A stretch of 64,000 bases of DNA from Chryseosolibacter histidinae (GTDB lineage: Bacteria; Bacteroidota; Bacteroidia; Cytophagales; Cyclobacteriaceae): contig NZ_JAHESF010000031.1 in NCBI RefSeq assembly GCF_018598225.1, forward strand, positions 1-64,000, written 5' to 3'. Numbering within the stretch: position 1 is the stretch's first letter; each line of letters opens with the position of its first letter. The notes below the pieces were generated by a model. The model was not told the DNA's origin. It worked only from the letters and a program-made list of their open reading frames with translations, and ran no database searches. Shown here piece after piece: positions 9,859-13,136 of this stretch. A program made the position numbers and the translations under genes.

Positions 9859-10326
9859 TCATTGAATCAGATTCAGGCTGCGGTCGAGGCTTTCTTCCAG
9901 CGAGATCATGGTCTCCGTTCGTTCGATGCCCTCAACCTGCTGTATTTTATCGTGAAGCACCTGTTTGAGATGGTTAGTGTCTTTGCAATGGATTTTCACA
10001 AACATGCTGTAATTGCCGGTTGTATAGTGGATGTTGGTCACTTCCGGAATGGCTTTGAGGGTGGCCATTACCTGGTCGTAAAGCGCACTTTTCTGTAAAA
10101 AAATGCCGATAAAGGCGGTGATATCATATCCAAGCTTGGCGTAATTGACCTTGAGGGTGGTTTTTTCTACGATACCTGCTTCCTCCATCTTATTCATGCG
10201 CACGTGTACGGTTCCGCCTGAAACAAAGGCTTTTTTGGCAACTTCTGTATAAGGCTTTTTGGCATCCTGCATCAAGATCTCAAGGATCTTCAGGTCGACA
10301 TTGTCAACTTTCAAATTTTCGGCCAT
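9859..10326 (-). CDS. Lrp/AsnC-family transcriptional regulator
   Basis: 155 residues starting at MAENLKVDN. An N-terminal winged HTH (~5-60; LKILEILMQDAKKPYTEVAK, then SGGTVHVRMNKMEEAGIV) is followed by an Lrp-type RAM ligand domain (~70-150; TNIHYTTGNYSMFVKIHCKD). An in-frame TTG 30 bases upstream was not used as the start, because the perfect -7 box lies on top of it. Lrp-type proteins form oligomers that sense amino acids. It lies just upstream of the suf operon on the same strand and divergent from the RNA array; targets are unknown, but a palindrome over its own promoter suggests autoregulation. Confidence 0.9.
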   Translation of the reverse strand: MAENLKVDNVDLKILEILMQDAKKPYTEVAKKAFVSGGTVHVRMNKMEEAGIVEKTTLKVNYAKLGYDITAFIGIFLQKSALYDQVMATLKAIPEVTNIHYTTGNYSMFVKIHCKDTNHLKQVLHDKIQQVEGIERTETMISLEESLDRSLNLIQ

Positions 10327-10434: not shown

Positions 10435-10495
10435 TTAAAGATTTTACAATCAACCGGACGCAAACGGCAGCCGGGATTCAAAAAAATTGAAATAT

Positions 10496-10540
10496 TGATG
10501 GGTGTGGGTCCCGGTCGCTCGGGGTAACAGACACATCCTA
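10496..10540 (+). ncRNA. 5' half copy A of a tRNA-like element (degenerate)
   Basis: TGATGGG followed by GTGTGG, a CCCG..CGGG palindrome at 10510-10523 and CAGACACA aligns with the 5' acceptor strand plus D-arm of the complete elements downstream, but no anticodon arm or 3' half follows. It differs most from the other copies and may be decaying. Confidence 0.45.
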
Positions 10541-10555
10541 GACACCGAAATAAAT

Positions 10556-10600
10556 TGTAGGGTGTTGATCCCGATGGCTATCGGGATGGCAGACACAACC
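10556..10600 (+). ncRNA. 5' half copy B of a tRNA-like element with palindromic D-loop
   Basis: Carries the 5' acceptor strand TGTAGGG (10556-10562) and D-arm sequence GTTGA...TGGCAGACA. Where the full copy has AAT, this one has a perfect palindrome, ATCCCGAT (10568-10575), GGCT, ATCGGGAT (10580-10587). No anticodon arm or 3' acceptor strand follows; instead 24 AT-rich bases lead to the full copy U1, whose 5' end is nearly identical. Confidence 0.6.
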
Positions 10601-10623
10601 TCTCAAATTGAAAGATAATAAAT

Positions 10624-10780
10624 TGTAGGGTGTTGAAATTGGCAGACAAGCCCTCCGGTCTCGAGGGTGGAGAGCACGGGATAAAGCATGCGCCCCGATC
10701 CTAGTACCGATTAAGCTACCGGACAGGGATCAGGTCATACCTAACCGCTCCGTGGAGGTTCGACCCCTTCCCCTACAGCA
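10624..10780 (+). ncRNA. tRNA-like RNA U1 with ~86-base variable region
   Basis: Full tRNA topology: acceptor TGTAGGG (10624-10630) pairs with CCCTACA (10771-10777). The D-stem is TTG/CAA with a loop AAATTGGCAGA like that of tRNA-Leu. Anticodon stem CCCTC/GAGGG (10651-10655, 10663-10667) holds the 7-base loop CGGTCTC. T-stem GGAGG/CCTTC holds the loop TTCGACC. Discriminator G at 10778, then CA. The region between anticodon and T arms is ~86 bases, closed by GGAG/CTCC and containing a further 8-position hairpin (10694-10734) with one mismatch. U33 is replaced by G and the nominal anticodon would be GTC. Far outside normal tRNA length (155 against ~75-95), so translation use is doubtful. Confidence 0.7.
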
Positions 10781-10851
10781 ATTTTCCCGGCTTCATATCC
10801 GGGGCAAAGTCTCGGAACAGATGGTTTCAAGACCTCATCAACAATATTCAT

Positions 10852-10896
10852 TGTAGGGTGGTGATCCCGATGGTTATCGGGATGGCAGACATACCG
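10852..10896 (+). ncRNA. 5' half copy D of a tRNA-like element with palindromic D-loop
   Basis: TGTAGGG (10852-10858), GTGGTGA, perfect palindrome ATCCCGAT (10864-10871) GGTT ATCGGGAT (10876-10883), then TGGCAGACATACC. It shares the GTGGTGA...CATACC variant with full copy U2 immediately downstream, as half copy B shares its variant with U1. No 3' half. Confidence 0.6.
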
Positions 10897-10920
10897 CCTG
10901 GTAAAGTGAAAACATAAAAT

Positions 10921-11070
10921 TGTAGGGTGGTGAAATTGGCAGACATACCCTCCTGTCTCGGGGGTGGGGAGCAAGGGATAAACGCAGGATAACGGATTGA
11001 CCACTAAATGTTCTTTTTCTGTCCTGTAGCTAACTTCCCCGTGGAGGTTCGAGCCCTCCCTCTACAGCCA
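10921..11070 (+). ncRNA. tRNA-like RNA U2 with ~83-base variable region and encoded CCA
   Basis: Acceptor TGTAGGG (10921-10927) pairs with CTCTACA (11060-11066, one G-U). D-stem GTG/CAT with loop AAATTGGCAGA; anticodon stem CCCTC/GGGGG with loop CTGTCTC (U33 present, nominal anticodon GTC). The long variable arm is closed by GGGGAG/CTTCCCC and contains a CAGGA/TCCTG hairpin. T-stem GGAGG/CCTCC is perfect with loop TTCGAGC. Discriminator G is followed by an encoded CCA (11068-11070). Changes relative to U1 keep the stems paired (D-stem, T-stem, variable stem), which argues for selection on structure. Confidence 0.7.
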
Positions 11071-11074
11071 TGAA

Positions 11075-11125
11075 GTCCCGGTTTTCGGGACATGATTTAT
11101 GACCAGATAGACGACCTGGTTTTTA
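11075..11125 (+). terminator. Two hairpins between tRNA-like copies, the second terminator-like
   Basis: GTCCCG/CGGGAC with loop GTTTT at 11075-11091, then ACCAG/CTGGT (11102-11106, 11116-11120) followed by a T-run. The second stem is only 5 bp, so it is at best a weak terminator or an RNA-processing landmark between U2 and U3. Confidence 0.4.
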
Positions 11126-11129
11126 TAAT

Positions 11130-11295
11130 TGTAGGATTGTTGCCCGATAGCTCATCGGGATGGAGACAAGCCCTTCTTTGTATCAGAAGGGTGGAGATGA
11201 GGAATAAAGTAAATTCCTGATCCTGATACACTAAACTACCAGGATCAGGTTTTACCTAACCACTCTGCGAAGGTTCGACCCCTTCTCCTACAGCA
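11130..11295 (+). ncRNA. tRNA-like RNA U3 with palindromic D-loop insert and long variable region
   Basis: Acceptor TGTAGGA (11130-11136) pairs with TCCTACA (11286-11292): both strands changed relative to U1 and pairing is kept. D-stem TTG/CAA encloses a 24-base loop holding the palindrome CCCGAT AGCTC ATCGGG. The anticodon arm is a perfect 7-bp stem CCCTTCT/AGAAGGG with loop TTGTATC (nominal anticodon GTA). The variable region has a perfect 9-bp hairpin, CTGATCCTG (11217-11225) with CAGGATCAG (11240-11248). T-stem GAAGG/CCTTC, loop TTCGACC. Discriminator G, then CA. It has no preceding half copy, but carries the palindrome itself. Confidence 0.7.
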
Positions 11296-11326
11296 GCTCA
11301 GTTTAGGTTAATGAGTTATTAGAGCT

Positions 11327-11374
11327 ACCCACTTTGTTATGATAGGGATCTGACGAAGTGGGTTTATTTTTTTA
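11327..11374 (+). terminator. Strong terminator after the tRNA-like array
   Basis: Stem ACCCACTT (11327-11334) with AAGTGGGT (11356-11363), 21-base loop, then TTATTTTTTT. Plus-strand orientation shows that the array is transcribed in this direction and probably as one unit. Confidence 0.8.
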
Positions 11375-11456
11375 CGGCTTTTTCCCCCGCCTATTGATTT
11401 GCTGGCAAACAATCGTTTGCTTTGAACTGACTAATTCATGCATTAATCTGCACCTT

Positions 11457-13136
11457 ATGAAAGATTTTCCCTGGTATAAGAGTTATCCGGCAGGCGTCCC
11501 CAATGAAGTAAAGTTGTATGAATACAATTCTGTAACGGAGATCTTCGACGAGAGCTGTAAAAAATACAAAGACAAAATTGCATTCGAGAACATGGGCGCC
11601 ACACTCACCTTCGCACAGGTGGATGAGCTGGCCCGGAACTTTGCCGCCTATCTTCAGCAGGATCTTAAACTTCAGAAGGGAGAGCGCATCGCCATACAGA
11701 TGCCCAACCTGCTGCAGTTTCCCATCGCATTTCTCGGAGCCCTTCGCGCAGGCCTCATCGTTGTGAACACAAACCCGTTATACACACCGCGCGAAATGGA
11801 GCACCAGTTCAAGGATTCCGGTGCCGTTGCCATTGTGATCGTAGCCAACTTCGCCAGTAACCTTGAAAAGATCATTCAACATACACAGATCAGGCACGTG
11901 ATCGTCACGCAGCTTGGCGATATGCTGGGAGGTTTCAAAGGTGCGCTTGTGAATTTTGTAGTGAAGAACGTGAAGAAGATGGTTCCTGCGTACAACCTCC
12001 CTGGCGCGATCTCCTTCAAACATGCGCTGAAGAAGGGCGCAGGCCTGCAGCTTCAGAAGCCCACAGTATCAGTCAATGACCTGGTGGTGCTGCAATATAC
12101 CGGTGGCACTACCGGCATATCCAAAGGAGCGCAGCTGTCGCACGGCAACCTCATCGCGCACAACGCCATGATCCGCTACTGGTTTCAGCCATACATGCGG
12201 GCTGACAAGGAAGATATCATCATCACGGCCATTCCCATGTATCACATTTTTGCACTCACCGTCAACGGACTGCTGATGTTCAGCACCGGTGTGAAAAATG
12301 TGATGATCACCAATCCGCGCGACATGAAGGGATTTGTAAAAGAATTGAAGAAGCACAAGTTCACGATCATGACCGGTGTGAACACACTCTTCAACGGACT
12401 GCTGAACACACCCGGTTTCAAAGAGCTTGATTTCTCTCACCTCAAAGGTGCCGTAGGTGGCGCCATGGCCGTTCAGGATGTGGTGGCCAAACGCTGGAGA
12501 GAAGTGACCGGCTCACCGCTGTTAGAAGGTTACGGACTGAGCGAAACTTCTCCCGTGTTGTGCTGCAATCCGCTCGATGGCAAACACAGACCAGGCACCA
12601 TCGGTATCCCCATGCCCAGTACTGAAGTGGGCATCTTCGACGACAACGGCAACCAGGTGCCACAGGGAGAGAGCGGCGAGATCTGTGCACGCGGACCGCA
12701 GGTGATGTCAGGCTACTGGAATAAAGACAACACCGGCGTCTTCTTCCCCGGCGGATGGTTCAGGACCGGCGACATCGGACAGATGGATAAAGATGGATTC
12801 TTCAAGATCGTGGATCGCAAAAAAGATATGATCAAGGTTTCGGGCTTTAATGTTTTCCCGAACGAGATCGAGAACGTGATCGCGGGACATCCTAAAGTGC
12901 TGGAAGTAGCAGCGATCGGTGTTCCGGATGCCAAGTCAGGTGAAGTGATCAAGGTCTTCATTGTGAAACGCGACCAGAGCCTTACGCAGGAAGAGATCCT
13001 GAAATTCTGCCACGAGAACCTCACCAACTACAAGGTGCCCAAACATGTGGAGTTCAGAAAAGAGCTTCCGAAGACCAATGTGGGCAAAATACTCAGGCGT
13101 GCCCTGAAAGAGCAGGAGTCCGTGGCCGCTGCCTGA
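11457..13136 (+). CDS. Long-chain fatty acid--CoA ligase (FadD-like)
   Basis: 559 residues from ATG 11457 (MKDFPWYKSYPAG). The open frame extends 99 bases further up, but that stretch crosses the array terminator, so it was not used. Adenylate-forming enzyme: P-loop-like YTGGTTGISKGAQLSH (~200), GYGLSETSPV (~350), GWFRTGDIG and DRKKDMIKVSGFNVFP (~450), and the C-terminal catalytic lysine in KTNVGKILRR. It activates fatty acids with ATP and CoA for beta-oxidation or lipid synthesis, probably at the inner membrane face. Chain-length preference cannot be judged. The TolB-like gene follows after 36 bases on the same strand. Confidence 0.93.
   Translation: MKDFPWYKSYPAGVPNEVKLYEYNSVTEIFDESCKKYKDKIAFENMGATLTFAQVDELARNFAAYLQQDLKLQKGERIAIQMPNLLQFPIAFLGALRAGLIVVNTNPLYTPREMEHQFKDSGAVAIVIVANFASNLEKIIQHTQIRHVIVTQLGDMLGGFKGALVNFVVKNVKKMVPAYNLPGAISFKHALKKGAGLQLQKPTVSVNDLVVLQYTGGTTGISKGAQLSHGNLIAHNAMIRYWFQPYMRADKEDIIITAIPMYHIFALTVNGLLMFSTGVKNVMITNPRDMKGFVKELKKHKFTIMTGVNTLFNGLLNTPGFKELDFSHLKGAVGGAMAVQDVVAKRWREVTGSPLLEGYGLSETSPVLCCNPLDGKHRPGTIGIPMPSTEVGIFDDNGNQVPQGESGEICARGPQVMSGYWNKDNTGVFFPGGWFRTGDIGQMDKDGFFKIVDRKKDMIKVSGFNVFPNEIENVIAGHPKVLEVAAIGVPDAKSGEVIKVFIVKRDQSLTQEEILKFCHENLTNYKVPKHVEFRKELPKTNVGKILRRALKEQESVAAA

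Follow-up and report, generated by a model that had tools for sequence, protein, structure and literature searches.

The window analysed here is a 64,000-nucleotide (nt) stretch of the Chryseosolibacter histidinae genome (contig NZ_JAHESF010000031.1, positions 1 to 64,000), which carries on its plus strand, at 10494-11300, an array of tRNA-like RNAs with a very long variable arm. The array consists of two intact copies and one diverged copy, 149-166 nt in length, together with three copies of the 5' half, and fills the gap between a minus-strand gene encoding an AsnC-type regulator (9859-10326) and a plus-strand open reading frame at 11358-13136 that, judged by eye, looks like a candidate AMP-binding ligase. 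Copy 1 extends from position -1 to C74 over 10623-10779 (coordinates checked), with U1 at 10624, the anticodon loop CGGTCTC at 10656-10662, G34-C36 at 10658-10660, G73 at 10778 and C74 at 10779. Similarly, copy 2 occupies 10920-11068, with U1 at 10921, the anticodon loop CTGTCTC at 10953-10959, its GUC at 10955-10957, G73 at 11067 and C74 at 11068; its variable arm is of the TTGACCACTAA insert type, and a DNA search locates a 150-nt relative, 96% identical, in a genome of the same genus. The two copies score 121.7 and 120.4 bits with the model R1, values that are partly given by construction because both sequences stand in the R1 training alignment. Copy 3 (11129-11294) reaches 57 bits and is diverged, displaying the anticodon loop TTGTATC without GUC, a 7-bp anticodon stem, a D-loop palindrome and the acceptor pair A7:U66, together with G73 and C74. 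Every full copy possesses a 7-bp acceptor stem, a D-arm, an anticodon arm, a T-arm containing TTCGA, and G73 followed by a C74 that is encoded. The original prediction, made from the letters of the window, had described these arms and the discriminator G correctly and had counted three complete copies; copies 1 and 2 are indeed canonical, copy 3 lacks the GUC anticodon, and the three 5'-half copies had gone unlisted.

The half copies lie at 10494-10548 (the most diverged, comprising the acceptor 5' strand and a D-arm with a hairpin, recognized from the sequence), at 10552-10612, directly upstream of copy 1, and at 10852-10912, directly upstream of copy 2, the latter two being marked by the direct repeats D3/D4. 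A palindrome resembling repetitive extragenic palindromic (REP) elements, CCCGATNGCTATCGGG, sits in the D-loops of 10552-10612 and 10852-10912 and, altered, in that of copy 3 at 11129-11294, and is repeated genome-wide; a full copy in locus L014 has a similar D-loop palindrome. Downstream, a probable intrinsic terminator of the array at 11327-11363 is formed by an 8-bp inverted repeat (11327-11334 with 11356-11363) around a 21-nt loop, followed by the T run TTATTTTTTT. The strong terminator proposed earlier corresponds to these elements and is not listed by the terminator scan, which admits loops of 3-8 only, and the promoter-like site proposed at the other end proved weak, with three sigma-70-like sites in the promoter scan against 2.2 +/- 1.4 expected. 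A DNA search of the source genome in which 40 of 85 candidates were scored finds no second array, and most of the other 43 matches are palindrome pieces of 18-27 bases. With R1 the same genome gives five matches at E 1e-6, three of which are the window copies.

The cloverleaf of these RNAs bears the mark of selection, as had been claimed at the outset. In the unfitted MAFFT alignment A1 (30 sequences), onto which the cloverleaf pairs were drawn by hand, 98.8% of 750 cells are paired, and 7 of the 25 pairs change on both sides. The number of two-sided changes is 35, compared with 12.8 +/- 2.6 in shuffled alignments, none of 500 of which reaches the A1 values, and with at most 6 in slid controls. 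Free-energy folding was rejected as evidence, copies 1 and 2 folding no better than shuffles (z of -0.61 and +0.97; copy 3, -4.02). The compensatory changes also bear on the idea of a selfish or degenerate repeat, derived from tRNA-Leu and spread by REP-like elements, which would accommodate the half copies, the D-loop palindromes and the ten DNA matches found in each of 3 of 98 related genomes. Such a repeat is extremely improbable in view of these changes, of the invariant identity positions described below, of an AsnC-type neighbour conserved across many families and of the single locus in the source genome (again with 40 of 85 candidates scored). A plasmid-borne element was likewise rejected after the plasmid collection gave no match, and D-arm-like stretches antisense in the inserts, noted from reading the sequence only, were set aside.

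The common form of the RNA is CUGUAGGGUGUUGAAAUUGGCAGACAAGCCCUCCUGUCUCGGGGGUGGAGA...GGAUAAA-[hairpin]-CUAACYGCUCCGUGGAGGUUCGAAUCCUUCUCCUACAGC. The hairpin insert may be as short as a tetraloop flanked by a few bases or may form a long hairpin, and the internal loop GGAUAAA / CUAAC of the variable arm is conserved, the length from U1 to G73 varying from 108 to 197 nt across 92 distinct copies. Among the closest known RNAs is bacterial tRNA-Leu, which shares the class II cloverleaf and whose D-loop in the source genome is close to that of the RNA (GAAATTGGTAGACAC); it departs from the RNA in the acceptor end, G73, the anticodon loop and the insert of the long arm. Among the R1 matches listed in 395 genomes of the phylum, the full-length ones score at least 78 bits and the shorter ones at most 60 bits; most of the latter measure 85-88 nt, a length that tRNA-Leu also has. 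Exceptions to this gap are window copy 3, at 57 bits, and a diverged copy in L082, at 74.3 bits.

The RNA family is widespread in Bacteroidota and appears new. Homologues in related genomes, which the original prediction had put forward as a check along with covariation beyond chance, are found in 74 of 98 relatives (the source genome counted), where every DNA match at E 1e-3 counts as presence. Among the named hosts of the family are Pedobacter, Dyadobacter, Chitinophaga, Niabella, Segetibacter, Algoriphagus, Echinicola, Indibacter, Marivirga, Marinoscillum, Neolewinella, Aquirufa and one metagenome-assembled genome of Ignavibacteriales. A pattern scan of the contig collection matched at least 120 stretches, of which 80, together with one viral contig, were scored with R1; five pattern matches outside Bacteroidota (L120, L140, L143, L183 and L193) gave no R1 match. 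The earlier statement that no described family fits is also supported. An Rfam 15 scan of the window returns no match at gathering scores, tRNA and tmRNA families included, and a permissive scan (E up to 10) returns six, all unrelated; ARAGORN calls no tRNA in the window or in the loci of 29 relatives, and no description of the family was found in open PMC papers, among the matches listed.

Bacterial Y RNAs (Yrl) also mimic tRNA. A TROVE-domain (Ro60-like) gene of the source genome is located at G000:C42:81474-82160. That the array encodes such a Y RNA, partner of a Ro60 orthologue, would agree with the tRNA mimicry of a noncoding RNA, as these are generally described, with the extra long arm and with the presence of this TROVE-domain gene; the chance of it is nevertheless practically negligible, since that gene lies on another contig, TROVE occurs in 13 of 98 relatives compared with 74 for the RNA, which thus shows no co-occurrence with a Ro60 gene, and the tRNA-like RNA has a complete acceptor stem with a discriminator.

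Identity nucleotides were counted in the 92 distinct copies, from 64 loci, none of which was fetched by a loop pattern; the copies are not independent events. An earlier count of 195 entries, of which 193 differ between U1 and C74, had pooled loci fetched with a pattern containing GTCTCG, by which the loop was fixed by construction, and the recount on the 92 copies without those loci left our assessment of the competing readings unchanged. Most stem pairs, the TTCGA T-loop, U8G9, a portion of the D-loop and AAA/TAA within the arm were prescribed by the counting pattern and hence are not independent evidence; the pattern left free the anticodon loop, the acceptor letters and positions 73 and 74. 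At the positions left free, U1:A72, G2:C71, U3:A70, U35, C36, C38, G73 and C74 are each present in 92 of 92 copies and G34 in 88, the consensus of the anticodon loop being [C/U]-N-G-U-C-[U/C]-C. The anticodon stem varies with its pairing mostly kept (C29:G41 in 80 copies, G:C in 4, U:A in 1, a mismatch in 7). According to a 2023 review (PMC9976931), G73, G34, U35, C36 and C38 are strong determinants of bacterial aspartate identity and G2-C71 a minor one, and PMC4206432 gives U1-A72 of tRNA-Asn as the pair read by bacterial GatCAB. The lack of clear identity noted in the original prediction is therefore not upheld, the anticodon loop, G73 and G2:C71 spelling aspartate identity.

The features required for decoding are, in contrast, eroded. 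Position 37 is a pyrimidine in all 92 copies and position 33 is U in 67, G in 17, C in 4 and A in 4, as opposed to purine 37 in 48 of 48 and U33 in 47 of 48 ordinary tRNAs of the source genome (ARAGORN around 30 of 53 tRNA hits). In the same way as the tRNA-like RNA, the ordinary tRNAs printed there encode the discriminator and C74 and mostly lack the remainder of CCA. These data agree with the earlier view that ordinary decoding is unlikely. An isoacceptor of tRNA-Asp, enlarged in its variable arm but still decoding, could explain the GUC anticodon, G73, the complete cloverleaf and U33 in 67 of 92 copies. It is nonetheless highly improbable, considering the invariant pyrimidine 37, the 25 copies without U33, the ordinary tRNA-Asp(GUC) already present in the genome, the U1:A72 pair, which would expose an aspartylated RNA to amidation, and a distribution that tracks GatB and the lack of AsnB. 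Since the identity nucleotides are present and the decoding features of the loop are lost, the RNA looks suited to aspartylation and amidation and unsuited to decoding.

The distribution of the RNA follows that of GatB, the subunit scored for GatCAB. In a sample of 98 genomes of the class, RNA-positive genomes were those with a best R1 E below 1e-18, a threshold inside the gap from 1.1e-21 to 2.5e-13, at which copies as diverged as copy 3 are missed. The RNA and GatB occur together in 37 of these genomes and are both missing from 57, GatB occurs without the RNA in 4, and the RNA never occurs without GatB. In families f23 and f24 the RNA-less genomes, three (G099, G218, G450) and two (G114, G211) respectively, are precisely the GatB-less ones, so the correspondence does not reflect only one deep split. 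The 98 closer relatives comprise 73 genomes with both, 1 with the RNA only (G056, a genome 89% complete), 13 with GatB only and 11 with neither. Outside the class GatB is present in 281 of 297 sampled genomes and the RNA in three (G367, G375 and G432), all of one genus and all with GatB. Fisher p values are 7.5e-23 for the class and 2.3e-7 for the relatives, phylogeny being ignored in both.

The enzymes of asparagine metabolism were searched in 80 of the 98 class genomes, the 18 dropped all being without RNA and GatB. Escherichia coli-type AsnB scores over its cut-off in 32 genomes, all without RNA and GatB (32 of 39), and in none of the 37 RNA-positive genomes. AsnA is found in 12 of 80, namely 3 of 37 RNA-positive genomes, G071 and 8 of the 39 with neither RNA nor GatB. 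One or other of the two enzymes is consequently present in 3 of 37 RNA-positive genomes versus 34 of 39 with neither. Some match to the broad AsnB family exists in 80 of 80 genomes. In 72 it lies over the cut-off, and the eight with a lower score include five RNA-positive genomes (G059, G069, G087, G245 and G361). Asparaginyl-tRNA synthetase (AsnRS) is over its cut-off in 80 of 80 genomes, hence in 37 of 37 RNA-positive ones, and glutaminyl-tRNA synthetase (GlnRS) in 75 of 80 and 34 of 37 respectively, falling below it in G365, G088, G478, G071 and G138. Because AsnRS and GlnRS are thus available, GatCAB is mostly dispensable for translation: in most RNA-positive genomes it is not required for Gln-tRNA or Asn-tRNA, and AsnA and E. 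coli-type AsnB over the cut-off are missing. It is from this kind of enzyme pattern that tRNA-dependent asparagine synthesis is inferred in PMC4206432.

In one GatB-positive genome of the class, G295, neither AsnA nor the RNA is found, and E. coli-type AsnB does not exceed the cut-off. The GatB of this genome forms a fusion with a second aspartyl-tRNA synthetase (AspRS), the AspRS part of which is closest to the Asp/Asn ligase 4wj3, with which it has a His (RDHG) in common. An operon at L282:4929-9676 of this genome holds GatA and the GatB-AspRS fusion protein, of 1116 aa, and the GatB of G249, a genome from the same genus, scores similarly. The residue at the position of the 4wj3 His is Leu in the solved enzymes 1eqr and 1efw, presumably the AspRS of E. 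coli and Thermus, respectively, and K, F or L in the AspRS of 13 RNA-positive genomes; we take the His at the RDHG position to mark relaxed specificity. The fusion looks like another solution to the need that the RNA would serve.

The regulator beside the array, which had escaped the original prediction as had the link to GatCAB and asparagine, begins at ATG 10326 on the minus strand, 298 bases from U1 of copy 1, and its frame is also open from TTG 10356. It matches Pfam AsnC_trans_reg with 68.4 bits and NCBIfam AsnC with 172.3 bits, under the equivalog cut-off of 227; AsnC is still the best family, Lrp reaching 47.9 bits, and the closest solved structure is the regulatory protein AsnC 2cg4 (E 6.6e-36). 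By these comparisons the regulator is AsnC-like rather than Lrp-like. Of 42 loci, made up of the window, a phage locus and 40 stretches from 37 genomes, 27 have an AsnC-type homologue in divergent orientation to the RNA; a wider SUF context is common to 14 of these 27 and absent from the rest. In a second, overlapping set of 72 loci, from which L117, L118, L161 and L191 were left out, 51 of the 65 loci with enough flank have the divergent homologue, 14 do not, and 7 have too little flank. In E. coli the asnC and asnA genes are arranged divergently. Activation of asnA by AsnC in that species is lowered by asparagine (PMC8707732). The window resembles that system in that an AsnC-type regulator adjoins, divergently, a proposed asparagine-making gene. 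The two differ in that the neighbour is here an RNA array, not a synthetase gene, and regulation is proposed only.

The RNA family, its identity nucleotides, the non-decoding loop, the AsnC-type neighbour, the link with GatB and the exclusion of E. coli-type AsnB in the class sample are computed facts. On their basis the array RNA is probably a dedicated, non-decoding tRNA-like carrier for RNA-dependent asparagine biosynthesis, of which we infer the charging, amidation and release. The divergent AsnC-type regulator would control the array according to the level of asparagine, and the transcript would be processed as a tRNA, with G73, the encoded C74 and CA added. AspRS would read GUC, C38, G73 and G2:C71 and load aspartate, after which GatCAB would read U1:A72 and amidate Asp-RNA to Asn-RNA. 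The asparagine would be kept out of Asp codons, because the loop, with pyrimidine 37 and variable 33, is unfit for decoding, and would be set free for use by AsnRS. The internal loop GGAUAAA / CUAAC might, as a guess, bar the ribosome, dock an enzyme or aid release.

The nearest known process is tRNA-dependent asparagine biosynthesis in Bdellovibrio and others, where a non-discriminating AspRS and GatCAB act on tRNA-Asn (PMC4206432). The two have in common that GatCAB is kept despite AsnRS and GlnRS and that the carrier has U1-A72, here in every copy counted. The lack of AsnA and AsnB that goes with that process may apply here as well, E. coli-type AsnB being over its cut-off in none and AsnA present in 3 of the 37 RNA-positive genomes, but the broad AsnB family exceeds its cut-off in 32 of 37. 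In contrast, the carrier proposed here would be an RNA of its own, tRNA-like, bearing an Asp anticodon and unfit to decode, from which asparagine would need to be released. With such an anticodon and no decoding, a discriminating AspRS would suffice. The staphylococcal cell-wall tRNA-Gly is a non-proteinogenic tRNA, a near-normal tRNA with another task; it is alike in being employed outside decoding and unlike the window RNA in its near-normal form. If the carrier role is true, the synthesis of asparagine on RNA, for which tRNA-Asn itself has been the known carrier so far, gains a dedicated RNA that does not decode. It would explain how AspRS can stay specific in organisms that still make asparagine on RNA and why GatCAB is retained in many Bacteroidota that have AsnRS and GlnRS.

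The same identity nucleotides, GatB link and AsnC-type neighbour would also fit a regulatory decoy or sensor that binds AspRS and/or GatCAB and reports Asp/Asn status, or tunes a flux based on tRNA-Asn, rather than acting as a bulk substrate, and the presence of only two intact copies in the source genome also speaks for such a role. The pathway to be regulated needs an AspRS that charges tRNA-Asn, whereas the AspRS of the 13 RNA-positive genomes have K, F or L in place of the 4wj3 His, to which we attach the meaning assumed above, and all 92 copies retain the acceptor end and C74 of ordinary tRNAs; a decoy or sensor is accordingly judged unlikely.

Several observations weigh against the carrier role. 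GatB occurs without the RNA in G071, G138, G249 and G295 of the class, in 13 of 98 relatives and in most genomes outside the class; the Fisher values ignore phylogeny, and the class genomes with neither RNA nor GatB belong largely to one family (f26). Three RNA-positive genomes have AsnA (G365, G088 and G257), and in G365, G088 and G478, which lack GlnRS over the cut-off, GatCAB may serve Gln-tRNA. The broad AsnB-family matches over the cut-off in 32 of 37 RNA-positive genomes include paralogues that might make asparagine, and five genomes without RNA and GatB have no AsnA or AsnB over the cut-off either (G114, G142 and G211, with G150 and G446 just under). The AsnC homologue does not adjoin the RNA in 15 of 42 and 14 of 65 loci. 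The idea that, where the RNA is missing, AsnC would stand beside asnA or asnB failed at 33 of 34 loci, searched with the window protein as query over flanks of about 5 kb (shorter at one locus), 31 of the 34 lying in RNA-less genomes. AspRS, which we take to be a class II enzyme, may meet the long variable arm. G10 is also given for bacterial Asp in the table of PMC9976931, and G1-C72 and G2-C71 are described as strictly conserved in bacterial tRNA-Asp in the same review; G10 and G1-C72 are not features of the RNA, in which position 10 is G in 9 of 92 copies and the first pair is U1-A72 in all 92. Window copy 3 has no GUC and is missed by the counting pattern. Finally, the proposal assigns no enzyme to the release of asparagine.

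A stronger form of the proposal can be advanced tentatively, as a possibility that we regard as short of probable. An RNA derived from tRNA-Leu may have gained Asp charging and the GatCAB signal, lost decoding and become a reusable carrier on which free asparagine is made, a noncoding RNA thus standing in for a protein enzyme of central metabolism, with GGAUAAA/CUAAC scaffolding an AspRS-GatCAB complex or speeding release. The gene would occupy the regulatory slot of E. coli asnA; phages, too, carry the RNA.

Some further observations concern the loci and the forms of the RNA. In the RNA-less genome G446, around 4622-5178 of L296, an AsnC homologue is divergent from and 122 bp upstream of an AsnB-like gene, the only such case of the 34 loci. 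An insert type common in L020, L021, L024, L025, L030, L032, L033 and L037 bears the loop palindrome GAGCTC on a conserved stem, through which a kissing dimer could form, and another insert type retains TTGACCACTAA. Six RNA copies in L028 / L093 form a tandem row with a spacing of about 190 bases; four of the six are almost the same in sequence. The RNA is also encountered in viruses. In a 636-kb phage genome a copy belongs to a cluster of tRNAs and adjoins a class II tRNA synthetase gene (L046:8007-8151, L117:825-969), and an IMG/VR contig holds a copy of the same sequence. Two looser patterns gave 78 viral stretches with one clear copy, on the minus strand of an IMG/VR contig of 4.7 kb, close to its end (L317:44-203), with a T-rich terminator directly after the copy, the nine other matches scoring at most 40.1 bits. 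The viral copies retain GUC and U1:A72, and the anticodon stem of the phage copy is UCUCC/GGAGA.

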